Shown here piece after piece: positions 6,506-29,851 of a stretch of DNA of 34,786 nt (position 1 is its first letter; each line of letters begins with the position of its first letter). The notes beneath the pieces are model-generated. The model made no database searches, was not told where the DNA came from, and saw only the letters and a list, made by a program, of their open reading frames with translations. The translations under genes were made by a program, and so were the position numbers. Source of the stretch: Thermodesulfovibrio aggregans (lineage in GTDB: Bacteria > Nitrospirota > Thermodesulfovibrionia > Thermodesulfovibrionales > Thermodesulfovibrionaceae); contig NZ_BCNO01000001.1 of NCBI RefSeq assembly GCF_001514535.1, positions 902,016 through 936,801 on the forward strand. The letters run 5' to 3'.

Positions 6506-6541
6506 ATAAAAAAAACCGAGTCTGCTCAAAACAAACTCGGG
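6506..6541 (-). terminator. Intrinsic terminator after hsp20
   Basis: On the minus strand a six-pair stem CCGAGT/ACTCGG (arms 6540-6535 and 6521-6516) with a 13-base loop is followed by a run of eight T residues (6515-6508). It sits 10 bases after the hsp20 stop and ends the dnaJ-hspR-clpB-hsp20 unit, separating it from trxA. Confidence 0.85.
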
Positions 6542-6551
6542 TCTTTAAATT

Positions 6552-7001
6552 TTACTCTAATGGAATCTTTATTTCTCGTGGTTTTGATTCCTCTTTTCTT
6601 AAAATAACTATCTCAAGTAAGCCATTCCTGAGATTTGCTTTAACTGAAGATTTATCCACATCTGATGGCAAATTAATGGTTCTTGAAAAAGGTCCATAGC
6701 TTCTTTCATTCAAGATATAGTCTTCCTCAGAAACACCTTCAGGTTTTTTTATTTCTCCTTTGATTAAAAGTCTATCATCAGTAATAGTTAAATCAATATC
6801 CTGTTTATCAACCCCTGGAATTTCTACCTGAATAACCAGCTCATTTCCTCTTTCAAAAATATCCACATTTGGAGAAATGATTCCCTCTGCTGTTACTGTT
6901 TTTCTCCTTCTTACAGGTGATAGAAACTCCTCAAAGAGCCTGTCCATCTCTTTTCTAATCTCCTCAATCTCTTTTAAAGGACTCCATTTTACAATAGCCA
7001 T
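6552..7001 (-). CDS. Small heat shock protein, Hsp20/alpha-crystallin family
   Basis: A 149-residue protein. An N-terminal arm (about 1-40, 'EEIRKEMDRLFEEFLSP') leads into an alpha-crystallin domain (about 45-138) with 'NVDIFERGNELVIQVEIPGV' and the signature 'VKANLRNGLLEIVI' (the A-x-x-x-x-G-x-L motif). The C-terminal 'REIKIPLE' carries the I-x-I/V-type oligomer-linking motif. It is an ATP-independent holdase that binds unfolding proteins and hands them to ClpB/DnaK. It is the last gene of the heat-shock unit, 18 bases after clpB, with its own AGGAGGTG ribosome site, and an intrinsic terminator follows. Confidence 0.92.
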   Translation of the reverse strand: MAIVKWSPLKEIEEIRKEMDRLFEEFLSPVRRRKTVTAEGIISPNVDIFERGNELVIQVEIPGVDKQDIDLTITDDRLLIKGEIKKPEGVSEEDYILNERSYGPFSRTINLPSDVDKSSVKANLRNGLLEIVILRKEESKPREIKIPLE

Positions 7002-7019: not shown

Positions 7020-9650
7020 TTAGGCTGCTTCTGCTAATACAACTTTATCAAATACAATTTTACCATCTTTGAAATCTACTTCCACAACATCTCCCTCTTT
7101 GAATGTTCCTTCAATAAGTTTTATCGCAAGTGGATCAAGTATCTCTTTCTGCAATACCCTTCTTAATGGTCTTGCACCATATACGGGGTCATAGCCAGTT
7201 CTTGCAATGTATTCTTTTGCTGCTTCTGTAAGAGTAATGTCAATCTTTCTCTGTTTAAGGTATTTCCTTATTCTTTTTACTTGAATTTCGACAATATTCT
7301 TCATCACTTCCATGCTCAATGGATTAAAGATAATTATCTCATCAATTCTGTTAAGAAATTCCGGTCTGAAGAAAGTTTTTAAGTCATCCATAATCTTTGT
7401 TCTTAAATCTTTCTTTAAATCCTGCCAGTGTTCAGAGCCACCACTTTCAAGAAACTCCTGAATATGAGCACTTCCTATGTTTGATGTCATAATGATAATT
7501 GTGTTTCTGAAATCAACGGTTCTACCGTGACCGTCAGTCAGACGACCATCATCAAGAACCTGTAGCAAAACATTGAAAACTTCAGGATGAGCCTTCTCAA
7601 CCTCATCAAAAAGAACAACACTGTATGGACGCCTACGTACTGCCTCTGTAAGCTGTCCGCCTTCCTCATATCCAACATAACCAGGAGGTGCACCGATCAG
7701 ACGGGATACAGTATGTCGCTCCTGATACTCTGACATATCAATACGAATAATTGCATTTTCATCATCAAAGAGGAACTCTGCAAGTGCCTTTGCGAGCTCA
7801 GTTTTACCAACACCTGTAGGACCAAGAAACATAAATGAACCAATAGGTCTATTTGGATCCTGTAATCCCGCTCTTGCCCTTCTTATGGCATTTGATACAG
7901 CAATAATTGCTTCATCCTGTCCAACAACTCTATCACGGAGACGCTCCTCCATTTTGAGTAGTTTCTGGGTTTCGCTCTCAAGAAGTTTCTTTACAGGGAT
8001 GCCTGTCCATTTAGCAACAACCTCTGCAATATCTTCCTCGTCAACTTCTTCTTTAAGCATCTTTCTTCCTTTTTGAATCTCTTTCAGGCGAGCATTTGCC
8101 TCATCAAGTGCTTTCTGAAGTTCAATAAGCTTTCCATATCTGAGTTCTGCTGCTCTTGTAAGGTCTCCCTGACGTTCTGCCTGCTCTGAGGCAATTCGGG
8201 TCTGCTCAATCTCTGCCTTTATCTCTCTAATCTTTAAAATAATCTCCTTTTCAGCCTGCCACTGCCTGCTTAATTCCTCTTTTTTAGCAAGCAGTTGCTC
8301 TATCTCCTGGGTAATTTTTTCTATCTTTTCCTTTGCATCCTCGGTTGGTTCTTTACTTAATGCCTGACGCTCTATTTCAAGCTGACGTAGTTTTCTTTCA
8401 ATTTCGTCAAGTTCAATTGGCATGCTGTCAATCTCCATTCTAAGCTTTGCTGCAGCTTCATCAATCAAATCAATTGCCTTGTCAGGCAGATATCTGTCTG
8501 TTATATACCTTGCTGAAAGAACCGCAGCTGCAACAAGTGCTGAATCCTTTATCTTTACACCATGATGAACCTCATATCTCTCCTTAAGCCCCCTCAAAAT
8601 AGAGATTGTATCCTCAACAGAAGGCTCCTTAACTAAAATTGGCTGAAATCTTCTTTCCAGTGCAGGGTCTTTTTCAATATATTTTCTGTATTCATTAACA
8701 GTGGTGGCACCAATGCATCTTAGTTCTCCCCTTGCAAGAGCTGGCTTAAGCATATTTGCTGCATCAACTGCTCCCTCAGCAGCTCCTGCACCAACAAGTG
8801 TGTGAAGTTCATCTATGAATGTTATAATTCGTCCCTCTGACTGGGTAATCTCTTTAAGAACTGCTTTAAGCCTTTCCTCAAACTCTCCCCTGTATTTTGC
8901 ACCTGCAAGAAGTGAACCTATATCAAGAGCTATCAGTTCTTTGTCTCTCAAAGATTCAGGAACATCGCCTGCTACAATTCTCTGTGCAAGACCTTCAACT
9001 ATTGCGGTTTTACCAACGCCAGGGTCTCCAATCAGCACTGGATTATTCTTTGTTCTTCTGCTTAAAACCTGAATAACTCTTCTTATCTCCTCATCCCTTC
9101 CAATAACAGGATCAAGCTTGCCTTTGCGGGCTAACTCTGTAAGATTTTTACCATATCTAACCAGTGCCTGATATTTTTCCTCTGGATTGGGGTCCGTAAC
9201 CTGATGAACTCCTCTTATCTTTCTCATTGCATCAAGCACTTTCTGCCTTGTTACTGCCTGCTTTTTTATTGCATCAAGCGCAGGTCCACCAACATCAAAC
9301 AAAGCTATAAGAAGATGTTCAACGCTTATGTATTCATCCTTAAGATGTTCAGCTTCAGCTTCTGCTTTCTCAAAGAGCTGGTTAAATCTTGGAGTAATAT
9401 AAATTTGTTCAAGAGGCTGAGCACCATAAACTTTTGGAATTTTATCTATAGCTTTCTTTAAATCTATTTTTATTGTGTTTAGGTCTGCACCGCACTCCTT
9501 TAAAATTCGATAAACAAGCCCTTCAGTATCCTCAACCAGAGCATAAAATAAATGCTCCACATCTATCTGCTGATTGCCGTGCTGAGAGGCAATCCTCTGA
9601 GCCTCTCTTATGGCTTCCTGTGTTTTATATGTAAGTCTATCAAATCTCAT
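7020..9650 (-). CDS. clpB: ClpB protein disaggregase (Hsp104 family)
   Basis: An 876-residue AAA+ unfoldase of normal ClpB length. In order: two Clp-N repeats (about 1-145), AAA module 1 with Walker A 'GDPGVGKTA' (about 206), a long charged coiled-coil M domain (about 405-530, rich in Glu/Lys/Leu), and AAA module 2 with Walker A '[10 protein letters not shown]' (about 608), '[13 protein letters not shown]' pore loop and '[11 protein letters not shown]'. The M domain separates it from ClpA and ClpC and allows DnaK-dependent rescue of aggregates. The start ATG has a GGAGG site. It follows hspR after 11 bases and precedes hsp20, so the disaggregase and holdase are co-expressed under HspR. Confidence 0.96.
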
Positions 9651-9661
9651 GGTTTTCCTCC

Positions 9662-10000
9662 TTAAATTTGTTCAAAAAACTTTTTAATTCTTTTTTCAAT
9701 CTGCTCTCTTACATCTTCATCAACGTAGCGAAGTACTTCCTGTATGAATTGTTCCATCATCTGCATTCTTTCACGCATTCTGAGAATAATATCCACTCCA
9801 GCCCTGTTAACTCCAAATTCCTTTGTAAGTTTTATTACAAAGTTAAGTCTTTCAATGTCTTCATCTGTGTAAACTCTCTGTCTTTTAATCCTCTTTGGTT
9901 TTATAAAACCTTCTCTTTCATAAAGCCTCAGTGTCTGAGGATGAACATTTAGAAGTCTGCAAACCATGCTTATCATGTAGAATCTCTCGTCCTGTCTCAT
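9662..10000 (-). CDS. hspR: HspR-like MerR-family heat-shock repressor
   Basis: A 112-residue MerR-type regulator. The N-terminal winged helix (about 8-75) reads '[26 protein letters not shown]...[15 protein letters not shown]', typical of HspR, and a short amphipathic dimerisation helix ends the protein. There is no metal- or drug-binding C-terminal domain. HspR represses chaperone operons by binding the HAIR inverted repeat and in actinobacteria is assisted by DnaK. Its ATG overlaps the dnaJ stop (ATGA) and has a strong GGAGG site. A HAIR-like repeat lies before dnaJ, which suggests autoregulation of the whole operon. No dnaK or grpE is in the window. Confidence 0.88.
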
Positions 10001-11070
10001 GACTCCCTCCTCAACATGAATTCTCTTGGATTTTCTCTGTAAAAGCGTTCAATTTTCCTGATTTCTTCCTTTTCAGAAGCTGACAATCCTTTAGGAACTA
10101 CTATCTTTATAACCACATACATGTCTCCTTTTCTGCCTCCCTTTGGAGATGGAAAGCCTTTACCTGAAATTCTAAATTTCTGCCCACCCTGAGTTCCCTC
10201 GGGAATTTTCATTGTAACTGTGTTTCCATCAGGAGTAGGAACATCAACCTTTGCACCTAAGACAGCCTCAACAAATGTTACTGGAAGCTCAATATATACA
10301 TCCTCCCCCTTTCTTGTAAAAAATGGATGGGGAATAACATTAACCTCAAGTATCAAATCCCCGTAGGGAGCTCCACCTCTTCCAGCATTTCCATATCCTT
10401 TAACCTTTACATTTGAGCCACTGTCTACACCAGCAGGAATTTTTGCCTTTACTGTCTCAGTAATTAAAACTCTTCCTGTTCCTCCACAGTTTTTACACTT
10501 TGATGAAGCAGTTCTTCCGGTTCCTCCACAATTAGGGCATGTTTGACTTACTCTCATGAATCCTCTTGAAACCTGAACTCTACCAGTTCCTCCACATCTT
10601 GAGCATATATCAACCTTATCAGCGCCACTTCCATGACATACCTGACACTCAATATATCTCTGATATGTTACTGGTTTTACAGTACCTTTATAAGCTTCTT
10701 CAAAGGTTAATGTAACAGGAATAACTATATCTTCACCTTTTATATAGGTAGTTCTTGTTGTAGTGAAAGTTTCACCAAATATATCACCAAAGATATCACC
10801 CAGATCAAAGTGCTTTGTAAAGTCAAAACCACCAAAATCAAAACCTTTAAAATCAAAGGTTTCACCTCTATCATACTCAGCTCTTTTCTGAGGATCACTC
10901 AGCACAGCATATGCTTCATTTATCTCTTTAAACTTCTCTTCAGCCTCTTTATTACCTGGATTCAAATCAGGATGATATTTCCTCGCAAGCTTACGATAAG
11001 CTTTTTTAATCTCATCCTGAGTGGCATCCTTACTGACACCAAGAATTTTATAATAATCCTTGCGTTCCAT
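9997..11070 (-). CDS. dnaJ: DnaJ (Hsp40) co-chaperone
   Basis: A 357-residue type I Hsp40. The J domain (about 1-70) carries the His-Pro-Asp motif in '[12 protein letters not shown]'. A phenylalanine/glycine-rich linker follows ('[13 protein letters not shown]', about 72-100), then a zinc domain with four CxxCxGxG-like repeats ('CQVCHGSG', 'CSRCGGTG', 'CPNCGGTG', 'CKNCGGTG', about 137-205) and the C-terminal substrate-binding domain. It stimulates DnaK ATPase and delivers clients. The ATG at 11070 lacks a Shine-Dalgarno and lies only 16 bases from the HAIR element, so the mRNA leader is probably very short. It heads the dnaJ-hspR-clpB-hsp20 unit. Confidence 0.95.
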
Positions 11071-11086
11071 AAAATTAATTTAGCAT

Positions 11087-11107
11087 ATTGAGTTAATTTA
11101 TATCAAG
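11087..11107 (-). promoter_or_regulatory. HAIR-like HspR operator upstream of dnaJ
   Basis: The minus strand reads CTTGATA-N7-ACTCAAT. The HAIR consensus is CTTGAGT-N7-ACTCAAG, so the left arm matches 5 of 7, the right arm 6 of 7, and the 7-base spacer is exact. It lies 16 bases upstream of dnaJ in an operon that encodes HspR. The match and spacing are read directly; binding is inferred. Confidence 0.7.
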
Positions 11108-11259
11108 ATCTCGAAAAATTTTTTCAGGTTATCTTTGGATTGTCTTAAAAGCAAGAATTCAAAACATAAGGTTTACCAGATTTGTATGGTTTATTTATCG
11201 GCAATTTGATTAAATTAATGTTAAAATAAAAAATTAACTATGGAATTTGGAGGTGGGAA

Positions 11260-12504
11260 ATGAAATATGTAAAAGGACTTAAATGTAGAGAATGCGGAAG
11301 AGAGTATCCTGTAGAACCAATATATGTATGTGAATTCTGTTTTGGTCCGCTTGAAGTAGTTTATGACTACGCAAAGATAAAGAAAGCTCTTTCAAGAAGA
11401 ATAATAGAAAAAAGACCCAAAACATTGTGGAGATATAAAGAACTTCTACCAATAGATGGTGAACCACAGGTTGGACTAAATTCAGGATTTACACCTTTGG
11501 TTGAAGCTAAAAATCTTGCCAAATATCTCAATGTAAAGGAACTTTATATAAAAGATGATACAGTTGCCCATCCTACACTTTCATTTAAAGATAGAGTTGT
11601 GGCAGTGGCACTTACAAAAGCAAAGGAGTTTGGCTTTGATACTGTAGCCTGTGCATCAACTGGAAACCTTGCTCATGCTGTCTCAGCTCATGGAGCAAAG
11701 GCTGGATTTAGAAGATTTATATTTATTCCTGCAACACTTGAACAAAGTAAAATTGTCGCTTCCATTGTTTATGAGCCGAATCTTGTTGCAGTTGATGGAA
11801 ACTACGATGACGTAAACAGGCTTTGTAGTGAAATTGCCAACAAATACAGATGGGCTTTTGTAAACATAAATATCAGACCTTTTTATGCAGAAGGCTCAAA
11901 AACAATGGGATTTGAAATAGTTGAACAACTTGGCTGGAAAGCACCAGACAGCATTGTAGTTCCCTGTGCCAGTGGCTCACTTCTTACAAAGGTGTGGAAG
12001 GCATTAAAGGAGTTTAAAGAGCTTGGAATTTTAAAGGAGCTTGAGACAAAAATATATGGTGCTCAGGCAACAGGATGCTCACCAATTTCTACAGCCTTTA
12101 AACAGGGAACAGATGTTATAAGACCTGTAAAACCAAACACTGTTGCAAAGTCTCTTGCAATAGGAAATCCTGCTGATGGATATTATGCTCTGCAGGCTGT
12201 AAAGGAAAGTGGTGGTGCTATGGAAGATGTCTCTGATGAAGAAATTATTGAAGCAATAAAAATTCTTGCAAAAACAGAAGGTATATTTACAGAGACAGCA
12301 GGAGGAGTTACTCTTGCCTGTTATATTAAACTTTTAAAAGAGGGAAAAATTGATAGAAAAGATAGAACTGTACTTTGTATTACAGGAAACGGACTTAAAA
12401 CAGCAGAAGTTTTAGGTGGTAAAACAGTAGAAGTTTATAACATTAAACCTAATCTTGCTTCCTTTGAAGAAGCTTTAAAAAGAATTAATGAAAAGGGGAG
12501 GTAA
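11260..12504 (+). CDS. Threonine-synthase-like PLP enzyme with N-terminal zinc ribbon (paralogue 1)
   Basis: A 414-residue fold-type II PLP enzyme. The N-terminal zinc ribbon has two Cys-x-x-Cys pairs (residues 9/12 and 24/27). The PLP lysine is probably Lys110 in 'HPTLSFKDRVV', followed by the phosphate-binding 'ASTGNLAHA' (132-140). Overall it matches long, archaeal-type threonine synthases, which turn O-phosphohomoserine into threonine. The lysine motif differs from the canonical 'PTGSFKDRG' seen in paralogue 2: Leu replaces Gly before the Ser, and Val replaces Gly after Arg. A second threonine synthase lies two genes on, with a sulfur carrier between, so this copy may do sulfur transfer to a phosphorylated amino acid. 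That is an inference; ordinary threonine synthase remains possible. GGAGGTG precedes the ATG. Confidence 0.8.
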   Translation: MKYVKGLKCRECGREYPVEPIYVCEFCFGPLEVVYDYAKIKKALSRRIIEKRPKTLWRYKELLPIDGEPQVGLNSGFTPLVEAKNLAKYLNVKELYIKDDTVAHPTLSFKDRVVAVALTKAKEFGFDTVACASTGNLAHAVSAHGAKAGFRRFIFIPATLEQSKIVASIVYEPNLVAVDGNYDDVNRLCSEIANKYRWAFVNINIRPFYAEGSKTMGFEIVEQLGWKAPDSIVVPCASGSLLTKVWKALKEFKELGILKELETKIYGAQATGCSPISTAFKQGTDVIRPVKPNTVAKSLAIGNPADGYYALQAVKESGGAMEDVSDEEIIEAIKILAKTEGIFTETAGGVTLACYIKLLKEGKIDRKDRTVLCITGNGLKTAEVLGGKTVEVYNIKPNLASFEEALKRINEKGR

Positions 12505-12506
12505 AA

Positions 12507-12782
12507 ATGGCTGTAAAAGTTTTAATACCAACACCACTTCAGAAACTCACTGGTGGCAAAGATGTAGTGGAAGCTCCAGCAGGAAAAATAATAGAGATAA
12601 TAAATGCTCTTGATAAACAATATCCAGGACTTGCGGAAAGACTCTGTCAAGATGGTAAGATAAGAAGGTTTATAAATATTTATCTTAATGAAGAAGATGT
12701 GAGATTCCTCCAGGGAGAAGAAACTGTAGCTAAAGATGGAGATGAGGTTTCAATTGTTCCTGCCATTGCAGGAGGAAAATAA
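12507..12782 (+). CDS. MoaD/ThiS-family ubiquitin-like sulfur carrier protein
   Basis: A 91-residue protein with a beta-grasp fold: 'VKVLIPTPLQKLTGG', the 'EIINALDKQYPGL' helix, 'FINIYLNEEDVRFL', and the hallmark 'DGDEVSIVPAIAGG' end. MoaD/ThiS carriers are activated as C-terminal Gly-Gly thiocarboxylates. Here the Gly-Gly is followed by one extra lysine, so activation would need a protease to expose the diglycine, as reported for QbsE and HcyS. It starts two bases after the ThrC-like gene with its own GGAGG site and is followed by a NIL-domain gene. CysO of mycobacteria, which feeds sulfur to a PLP enzyme encoded beside it, is the closest precedent. No molybdopterin or thiamine genes are nearby. 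Confidence 0.85.
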   Translation: MAVKVLIPTPLQKLTGGKDVVEAPAGKIIEIINALDKQYPGLAERLCQDGKIRRFINIYLNEEDVRFLQGEETVAKDGDEVSIVPAIAGGK

Positions 12783-12796
12783 GAAAGGAGGCTTTT

Positions 12797-13045
12797 ATGG
12801 GTGAGATAAAAAAACTAAGAGTAAGGCTCACCTTTCCTCAAGAATTAATTAAGGAGCCTGTTCTTTTTAGAATGGCAAAAAAATATGATGTTATGCCAAA
12901 TATTCGTAGAGCAAGAGTCACTGATACATTTGGAGAAATGATCCTTGAACTTGAAGGATTAGAAGAAAATCTTGAACAGGGAATTAACTCCCTCAGAGAG
13001 CAGGGAGTTGTAGTTGAATTAATAGAAGGAGACATAATTGAATAG
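12797..13045 (+). CDS. Stand-alone NIL-domain protein
   Basis: An 82-residue protein matching the NIL domain (an ACT-like small domain at the C-terminus of the methionine importer ATPase MetN, also found fused to ferredoxins). Its core is '[26 protein letters not shown]', '[20 protein letters not shown]' and '[15 protein letters not shown]', covering nearly the whole length; there is no ferredoxin cysteine cluster. NIL domains are thought to sense or handle sulfur amino acids: in MetN the related domain binds methionine, and NIL-ferredoxins are linked to homocysteine biosynthesis. Here it sits between a sulfur carrier and threonine synthase with a perfect AGGAGG site, so a role in sulfur amino-acid synthesis or its feedback is likely. 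The molecular role is unknown. Confidence 0.85.
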
Positions 13046-13047
13046 CT

Positions 13048-14121
13048 ATGAGTACAAGAACACCTTGGAGAGGAATTATAAAAGAATACTATGAATTTTT
13101 CCCTGTAACAGAAAAAACTCCAATTATTACTCTCTTGGAAGGAAATACGCCTCTTGTTAGAGTAAACAATCTCACAAAAAAGCTTAACATGGATATAGAG
13201 CTCTATCTCAAATTTGATGGAGCAAATCCTACGGGCTCCTTTAAAGATAGAGGAATGACTCTTGCCATATCAAAAGCAGTCGAAGAAGGCTCACGGGCTG
13301 TAATATGTGCTTCAACTGGAAATACTTCAGCTTCTGCATCAGCCTATGCTGCAAGAGCCGGGATTAAGGCAATTGTTCTTATTCCAGAAGGAAAAATCGC
13401 AACTGGAAAACTCGTTCAGGCAATGATTCATGGAGCAGTGGTAATACAGATTAAAGGAAATTTTGATCAGGCTTTAGATATTGTAAGAGCTATTGTAAAA
13501 GAGTATCCAATTACCCTCGTTAATTCAATAAATCCCTATAGAATTGAGGGACAGAAGTCAGCAGCTTTTGAAGTATGTGATCAACTCGGGTATGCACCAG
13601 ATTATCATGCATTGCCTGTGGGAAATGCAGGTAATATCTCAGCATACTGGAAGGGATATAAAGAATATAAGGAAAAAGGAAGGATCACAACTCTTCCTAA
13701 GATGCTTGGATTTCAAGCAGCAGGAGCGGCACCAATTGTGCTTGGAAGACCTGTAGATAAACCTGAAACAATAGCAACTGCCATAAGAATAGGAAATCCT
13801 GCGAGTTGGAAAACTGCTGTTCAGGCGAGGGACGAATCTGGTGGGAAAATAGATATTGTTACAGATGAAGAAATTCTTAAGGCATATAAAATGATAGCAA
13901 GTTATGAAGGAATATTTTGTGAACCTGCTTCTGCAGCTTCTGTTGCAGGAGTTATAAAGCTTTACAATCAGGGATACTTCAAAAAAGATTCAACAGTTGT
14001 ATGTACACTTACTGGAAATGGACTAAAAGATCCTGATACTGTTTTCAAGGTAGCTGATGAACCTCATATTTTACCTGCAAACCTTGATAATGTGAAAGCC
14101 TTTATGGAGAAGATTTTATGA
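13048..14121 (+). CDS. thrC: Threonine synthase (canonical short type, paralogue 2)
   Basis: A 357-residue threonine synthase resembling the Thermus and Mycobacterium type, without a zinc ribbon. Features: '[11 protein letters not shown]' (about 29-39), PLP lysine 66 in '[11 protein letters not shown]', '[18 protein letters not shown]' (about 84-101), '[13 protein letters not shown]' and '[10 protein letters not shown]'. It converts O-phospho-L-homoserine to L-threonine and phosphate, the last step of threonine synthesis. It starts two bases after the NIL gene and its stop overlaps the next gene, the proposed homoserine kinase (ATGA), so kinase and synthase would be made together. Of the two ThrC-like enzymes here, this one keeps the canonical active-site motif and is the likelier true ThrC. 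Confidence 0.92.
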
Positions 14122-28905: not shown

Positions 28906-28934
28906 CTAACAGTTTTTAAAGTTTATGATATAAT
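28906..28934 (+). promoter_or_regulatory. Promoter of ROK kinase-lepA unit, possibly leaderless
   Basis: CTAACA (28906-28911), 17-base spacer, TATAAT (28929-28934) preceded by TGA as an extended -10. The ATG follows after eight bases and there is no Shine-Dalgarno, so the mRNA probably starts at or next to the A of the ATG. Confidence 0.55.
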
Positions 28935-28942
28935 ATCTTTTT

Positions 28943-29851
28943 ATGTATTACATTGGCATAGACATAGGTGGCACAAACATTAAGATTGGTCTGATTTCTA
29001 AAGATTGGGAAATTGTAAAAATATGCAAATTTCCCACTGGTAGTGATCCAATGAAAACAATTACTGATGAGTTAGATAGCATTTTTAAAGAATTCAAAGT
29101 TACTGGCATAGGTGTTGGAGTTGCAGGTATTGTAGACAAAGAAGGCAATGTCATTCAAGCAGCCAATATTCCATCTTTGAATGATTATTCCTTAGGAAAA
29201 GAGTTAAAGGAAAGGTATAATGTAGATGTAAAAATAGAAAATGATGCAAATGTTGCAACAATTGCTGAAGCCTTATTTGGAGAAGGCAGGGGTATATCAA
29301 ATTTCATTATTCTGACACTTGGAACAGGAATTGGGGGTAGTTTATGGTTAAATGGACAAATTGCTAAGTTTCCTATGGAAGTCGGACATATGAGTATTAA
29401 TTTTCAAGGAAAATCCTGTAGTTGTGGAGGAGTTGGATGTCTTGAAGTTTATGCATCAGCCAGAGCAATAAAAGACAGTTTTATAGAAAAGCTTGAAAAT
29501 GGTGAGGACAGTCAGATTAAAGAATTTTATGAAGGTAATTTTTACAAAGCAACTTCTTTAGATATATATAAGGCAGCAATGGAAGGTGACAATGTCTGTA
29601 GAAATGTTCTTAAGGAAGCTGGCAAAGCCTTAGGTGCCGGGATGGCAAATTTGATAAATATTTTTGCTCCTGAAAAAATTGTCTTAACTGGTGGACTTTC
29701 CCAGGCAGTAAATATTTATATTGAAACAGCCATTCAAGAAGCTAAAAAAAGAGTAATGAAAGGACTTTCTGATTCAGTTAAAATAACTTTATCTAATTTA
29801 GTTGACAGCGGCGGAGTTTTAGGAGCTGTTTCAATTTTGAGAAATCAATGA
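28943..29851 (+). CDS. ROK-family sugar kinase, glucokinase-like
   Basis: A 302-residue ROK kinase. The phosphate-binding motif '[14 protein letters not shown]' is at the N-terminus, the catalytic Asp in '[13 protein letters not shown]' (about 103), '[17 protein letters not shown]' (about 130) and the ROK zinc site '[15 protein letters not shown]' (about 170-184) with the preceding His in 'EVGHMSI'. Glucose is the likeliest substrate; N-acetylhexosamines are alternatives, since the Glu-x-Gly-His arrangement is shared. Its stop overlaps the lepA ATG (ATGA). It begins the five-gene stretch of sugar kinase, lepA, lepB, ribE and manC. Confidence 0.88.

Follow-up and report, generated by a model that had tools for sequence, protein, structure and literature searches.

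HspR systems described so far differ in the chaperone to which the repressor answers. In Streptomyces, binding of HspR is strengthened by DnaK (PMC6032397), whereas in Helicobacter pylori HspR is reported not to be affected by DnaK, and its binding is weakened by CbpA, the first product of its operon (PMC6032397, PMC7074700). HspR of H. pylori covers both the -35 and -10 elements and represses its own operon alone (PMC6032397, PMC6102357). The consensus of the HspR-associated inverted repeat (HAIR) is given as CTTGAGT-N7-ACTCAAG (PMC6102357, PMC7464140). The J-protein CbpA has a MerR-fold partner, CbpM, which holds the J domain at the place where DnaK also binds and whose specificity depends on residues 26, 30 and 36 (PMC4063869). 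Here we describe a HAIR-like repeat in front of the dnaJ-hspR-clpB-hsp20 operon of Thermodesulfovibrio aggregans (Nitrospirota). It lies in a stretch of 34,786 nucleotides (nt), which we call the window (contig C1, 902016-936801; the genome comprises 2.0 Mb in 3 contigs). Judging by related genomes, the repeat is very probably a genuine operator; it belongs to a type already known, here in a form particular to the lineage.

A putative HspR operator before dnaJ

The operator, the operon and its 3' end occupy the following positions in the window.

11087 to 11107, minus strand: HAIR-like putative HspR operator, CTTGATA-N7-ACTCAAT (11/14 HAIR match and conservation across genomes)
9997 to 11070, minus strand: dnaJ, class A (J domain, HPD, zinc-finger domain), without a Shine-Dalgarno sequence (PF00226, PF00684, PF01556; TIGR02349 413 bits, cut-off 377)
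9662 to 10000, minus strand: hspR, predicted repressor of the MerR family (HspR, NF047375, is the best NCBIfam match; PF13411 60.1 bits)
7020 to 9650, minus strand: clpB (TIGR03346 1366 bits, cut-off 1232)
6552 to 7001, minus strand: hsp20 (PF00011 76.6 bits)
6516 to 6540, minus strand: intrinsic-terminator-like stem 3' of hsp20, followed by eight T (terminator scan, 11 pairs)

Read on the coding (minus) strand, 11107-11087 is CTTGATA TAAATTA ACTCAAT, located at -37 to -17 relative to the dnaJ ATG (11070). The site has three mismatches to the consensus and a HAIR spacer of exactly 7 bases, which confirms the 11 of 14 arm positions reported in a preliminary description of the window. Taken alone, this match is no better than chance: the window contains four such matches (2.59 expected; 27 of 100 shuffles reach four), and genome-wide the core CTTGA-N11-TCAA occurs 37 times vs 33 in a reversed control. 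The significance of the site therefore derives from its position and conservation.

A search for HspR in 245 Nitrospirota genomes gave a match in 197 at E 1e-3, although many of the weak ones are probably other MerR proteins. We took 120 loci with strong matches, making 121 loci with the window; G177 and G235 (contig ends), G016, G006 and G007 are outside the sample though ranked above the last locus taken (G121). Most stretches examined extend about 1.5 kb upstream of dnaJ, and 115 loci could be scored there (left out are L056, L127, L149, L152, L160 and L161). A site reaching the weight-matrix threshold of 12, as did 0.3% of 2300 shuffles, is present less than 200 nt from dnaJ in 109 of the 115 operons. 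Thus, the repeat is conserved in related genomes, a point on which the preliminary description had let its proposal depend. In each of the six other loci, a strong site (scores 19.5-25.0) lies at another place upstream of the leading gene of the operon. In L065 and L120 it is further upstream of dnaJ, and in L151, L155, L156 and L158, which represent two families and have the order hsp20-dnaJ-hspR-clpB, it precedes the leading hsp20 (22.9-25.0). Because the operator stands before hsp20 where hsp20 leads, the site moves with the first gene of the operon. At the level of families (tool labels), 20 of 22 have the site less than 200 nt from dnaJ, the other two being the hsp20-first families.

The best match to plain HAIR over the 115 loci is 13/14 in 1 locus, 12 in 7, 11 in 26, 10 in 50, 9 in 26 and 8 in 5. 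The operator typical of the lineage is CTTGACA-N7-ACT(A/C)AAG, and right arms of the TATCAAG type are found in several families. When the matrix was built without the genus of the window (from 98 relatives), the best site was at -37 in all 11 genus members; its score was reached by 0/200 shuffles in 10 of them and by 2/200 in L051. When the genus members are aligned, 16 of the 21 columns within the site are invariant vs 6 of 179 elsewhere upstream. A set of named records, partly from the same genomes, provided 31 Nitrospirota-like loci in which the region preceding dnaJ is available (the L214 row is a cut-contig artefact, and L226, with too little upstream DNA, is uncounted). Of these, 28 score at least 12; the misses are L196, L192 and L250, the latter an hsp20-first locus apparently on the same contig as L151. 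With the same matrix, the dnaJ-hspR upstream region scores at least 12 in 4 of 7 Aquificota loci that have 200 nt upstream.

The operon is conserved as well. The dnaJ gene is upstream of hspR in 120/121 loci, clpB is downstream in 121/121, and hsp20 follows hspR in 47 and precedes it in 4, while the remainder lack hsp20 or the sequence ends before it. No DnaK, GrpE or HrcA matches were found across the 121 hspR loci within the stretches examined. The dnaJ-hspR-clpB order is a lineage rule, and a dnaK-free operon is usual. Overall, the cross-genome comparison lends strong support to the proposed HspR operator and autoregulated operon. In the Acidobacteriota rows of L228-L270, many loci have dnaK and dnaJ on the same strand upstream of hspR, often kilobases away, with no clpB match after hspR.

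Within the window, all four genes are on the minus strand, in the order given in the preliminary description. The dnaJ/hspR, hspR/clpB and clpB/hsp20 gaps are -4, 11 and 18 bases, so that dnaJ and hspR overlap by 4 bases, and the stem at 6540-6516 was the best of 6 found in the terminator scan (3.0 in shuffles). HspR is the top curated family for the MerR protein (NF047375, E 2.4e-25), which we call HspR on the grounds of best match, context and putative operator, as a divergent relative. A second strong MerR match in the genome (L001) was not taken as HspR; it adjoins a 94-amino acid open reading frame (ORF) resembling an HU/IHF-type protein (judged by eye).

Chaperone genes predicted to be under HrcA and HspR

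The absence of dnaK noted in the preliminary description is true of the operon but not of the genome. The dnaK gene (C1:887917-889704), at a distance of 22 kb from dnaJ, belongs to hrcA-grpE-dnaK-dnaJ2, which has a controlling inverted repeat of chaperone expression (CIRCE) matching at 17/18 positions. HrcA is present in 60 of 61 genomes of the order, and CIRCE matches at 17 or 18 of 18 positions before hrcA-grpE-dnaK in all 30 loci read. A search of the same loci for HAIR sites, up to 400 nt before hrcA-grpE-dnaK, yielded none at or above 12 (top score 8.9); before dnaK, where the preliminary description had proposed looking for further HAIR sites in particular, there is CIRCE instead. For groEL, the CIRCE match is at least 16/18 in 26 of 30 cases, 15/18 in 3 (own genus) and 11/18 in the last, from G227, a genome with two GroEL matches. 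HAIR control of dnaK or groEL was rejected; two HAIR matches at groEL loci are weak (12.5 and 13.4) and far from CIRCE. Going by the tables, many genomes have a second class-A dnaJ at some 3-4 kb from hrcA. The chaperones thus seem to be split, with DnaK, GrpE, DnaJ2 and GroEL predicted to be under HrcA and DnaJ, ClpB and Hsp20 under HspR.

The scan for other HAIR sites likewise gave no support for a genome-wide regulon. With up to one mismatch, the lineage pattern has 153 matches in the 61 genomes vs 111 when the pattern is reversed as a control, so that each genome has on average less than one match in excess. Four exact matches outside the operon were inspected: three are inside ORFs (L277, L284, L302), and the fourth (L296) falls where two response-regulator genes meet; further exact matches (e.g. 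in G014 and G142) exist among the matches listed. Judging by pattern scans only, the HspR regulon is probably limited to this operon and would be unusually narrow.

Divergently from dnaJ, a cluster at 11260-14121 encodes a threonine synthase (11260-12504), a ThiS-family carrier (12507-12782), a NIL-domain protein (12797-13042) and a second pyridoxal phosphate enzyme (13048-14121). We take this cluster to resemble an anaerobic sulfur-amino-acid cluster.

Promoter overlap, proposed repression and the possible heat signal

The promoter scan placed one element in the operator and one downstream of it.

11101 to 11106, minus strand: -35 element TTGATA, within the left arm of the operator (CTTGACA in most relatives)
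11077 to 11082, minus strand: -10 element TAAATT, after an 18-base spacer and with TG in front

Among the 98 relatives outside the genus, a TANNNT box follows the left arm in 97: at 17 nt in 91 and at 18-19 nt in 6, and it is missing in 1. In composition-shuffled flanks, some TANNNT box occurs at 15-19 nt in 25%. Because the left arm coincides with the -35 box and the -10 box is 17 nt away, HspR on its site should keep RNA polymerase out. The operator starts at -37 in each of the 11 genus members, and an SD-like (Shine-Dalgarno-like) 4-mer precedes dnaJ in 0/11 vs 82/98 outside the genus; in the window, at 11060-11110, about 6 bases separate the end of the -10-like box from the start codon of dnaJ. 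Since the -10 box is close to the ATG and the SD sequence is missing throughout the genus, its dnaJ mRNA may be leaderless or nearly so, unlike that of most relatives outside the genus. The hspR, clpB and hsp20 genes of the window each have a strong SD sequence; by the same crude test the 4-mer is missing in 13 of 28 window genes checked, and SD absence by itself is weak evidence. Another leaderless candidate is the gene at 28943: it has no SD sequence, and TATAAT lies only a few bases upstream of the start codon (28923-28942). An RNA thermometer or riboswitch before dnaJ was considered and rejected, as 10900-11300 gave no Rfam match at E 0.1 and the predicted leader is too short.

The site, its overlap with the promoter, the order of the operon, their conservation and the separation from the CIRCE genes can all be read from the genomes compared. 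From these we infer binding of HspR as a dimer, repression and induction by heat, and we consider it likely that the repeat is the HspR operator through which the operon is repressed, with the whole mechanism as follows. A MerR-type HspR dimer on both arms would cover the -35 box together with the greater part of the spacer, thereby excluding housekeeping RNA polymerase. Upon heating, HspR would lose its DNA-binding activity and a normal sigma-70-type promoter would fire. The least certain step is the heat signal, which would be chaperone titration through the DnaJ/DnaK pair, with DnaJ from the first gene of the operon as the likely contact and DnaK as a possible participant.

Several observations weigh against this mechanism. 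The window HspR is under the curated NF047375 cut-off (88.4 bits vs 105). The window promoter, TTGATA-N18-TAAATT, is weak (9/12), with 20 promoter-like sites in the region vs 14.8 in shuffles, and conservation of TTGACA by itself is expected of any promoter. Many of the genomes sampled are closely related, the matrix was trained on the sequences that it scored (except in the leave-genus-out test), and the wider search for the six misses had no length-matched shuffle control. The L196 site is degraded (score 10.0), L192 (4350-4435) retains a CTTGACA box before dnaJ and has lost the right arm, and 3 of the 7 Aquificota loci are below the threshold. The L192 operon may have escaped from HspR control.

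If the conserved element were a strong promoter only, the HAIR likeness of its left arm would be that of a -35 box. TTGACA-N17-TATNNT in relatives is indeed near consensus, and the L192 box persists without the right arm. However, the right arm falls within the promoter spacer, where sequence should be free, yet its T17 and A19 are 96-99% conserved, and CTTGA[CT]A left arms are accompanied by a T[CA]AA right arm in 64/90 cases at the operator vs 24/282 elsewhere in the same loci. By these counts the right arm does not belong to the promoter, the operator appears to overlie a good housekeeping promoter in relatives, as is reported for the cbpA promoter of Helicobacter (PMC6032397), and a promoter-only element is highly improbable. 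It is also improbable, to a lesser degree, that HspR senses temperature directly and without a chaperone partner, in the manner reported for HrcA in Helicobacter and Campylobacter. HrcA is described as an intrinsic thermosensor (PMC8533110; also cited in PMC6032397), but this case concerns HrcA and not HspR, and the constant pairing of dnaJ with hspR suggests a functional pair.

A stronger contender, to which we give somewhat less than an even chance, is that DnaK from the HrcA operon acts as HspR co-repressor in trans, alone or as a DnaK-DnaJ-HspR complex, so that the wiring has changed and not the sensing; in its complex form it overlaps with the mechanism preferred above. DnaK, whose gene is 22 kb away and CIRCE-linked in relatives, can act in trans, a co-repressor role is described in Streptomyces (PMC6032397, PMC4063869), and in Desulfovibrio vulgaris tagged DnaK co-purified DnaJ (DVU1876) and "DafA" (DVU1875) (PMC3125180). 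On the other hand, HspR alone cannot close a feedback loop on DnaK, because no HAIR precedes the dnaK operon in any of the 30 loci, and in Helicobacter, which has the same J-gene-first layout, HspR binding is reportedly unaffected by DnaK (PMC6032397). The initial suggestion that sensing could depend on another chaperone is plausible in view of Helicobacter CbpA, but the Desulfovibrio data suit a DnaK-DnaJ-HspR complex also.

As for DnaJ as the contact in the preferred mechanism, J domains were compared at the CbpM specificity positions. HspR-paired DnaJ has R30 in 116/117 and a hydrophobic residue 36 in 117/117 sequences, and in 17/21 DnaJ2 sequences from the HrcA operon residue 30 is L or M and residue 36 is R. 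The 4 exceptions are from the genus of the window, so the two DnaJ proteins of the window genome are alike at 30 and 36. R26 is found in all HspR-paired DnaJ and all DnaJ2, and columns 56 and 65, outside the CbpM contact, differ between the sets as much or more. HspR-linked DnaJ of Aquificota, Aminicenantes and Acidobacteriota has R30 and hydrophobic 36 in 30/30, many Acidobacteriota dnaJ genes being kilobases from hspR. Against a special contact, however, class-A DnaJ from genomes without an HspR match has the same residues in 13/19. The signature was therefore rejected as proof of HspR contact: it is nearly constant with HspR, not diagnostic. A bolder proposal, that throughout the phylum the operon DnaJ is itself the heat sensor, appears rather unlikely. 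In that case HspR would hold DnaJ at the J domain as CbpM does, in competition with DnaK, the loop would measure DnaJ availability apart from the HrcA-run DnaK and GroEL, and the genus of the window would make a leaderless dnaJ message.

Comparison with known systems

The predicted operator would extend the HspR/HAIR switch to the Nitrospirota; we found no HspR study of this phylum among the open-access papers searched, most subscription papers being outside the search. With dnaK predicted to be outside HspR control, the lineage also offers a natural setting for telling DnaK and DnaJ apart as HspR partners, the point on which Streptomyces and Helicobacter disagree. In all 30 hrcA loci read, dnaK has CIRCE and no HAIR site over the threshold, whereas in a Streptomyces-type circuit it would be part of the HspR operon or preceded by HAIR. 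The Helicobacter-type arrangement, with a J gene leading the hspR operon and the operator over -35, is found, four loci having hsp20 before dnaJ.

We take DVU1875 of D. vulgaris to be MerR/HspR-like. By locus-tag order, DVU1876-DVU1875-DVU1874 is dnaJ, dafA, clpB, which parallels dnaJ-hspR-clpB here (PMC3125180, PMC3431258), but DVU1875 is interpreted not as a repressor but as a counterpart of the Thermus assembly factor DafA (PMC3125180). E. coli CbpA-CbpM is likewise a J-domain protein with a MerR-fold partner, a proposed relative of HspR; unlike HspR, CbpM is a co-chaperone inhibitor and not a DNA-binding repressor (PMC4063869). As in Streptomyces coelicolor, there are HspR, HAIR and clpB as a target, here a predicted one (PMC2687793), but there the dnaK operon is under HspR and groEL under HrcA, whereas here CIRCE is found at both dnaK and groEL. 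In the Campylobacter jejuni regulon, too, the left arm is the better conserved one in HAIR-like sites, which are found at promoters including those of cbp and clp, but its HspR has Pgro and Phrc as further targets, and a promoter there carries several sites (PMC7464140). The H. pylori cbpA-hspR-helicase operon shares with ours a J-domain gene first, then hspR, and one HAIR-like repeat as an operator over -35 (operator and promoter being predicted from sequence here); its third gene encodes a helicase, whereas here it is clpB.
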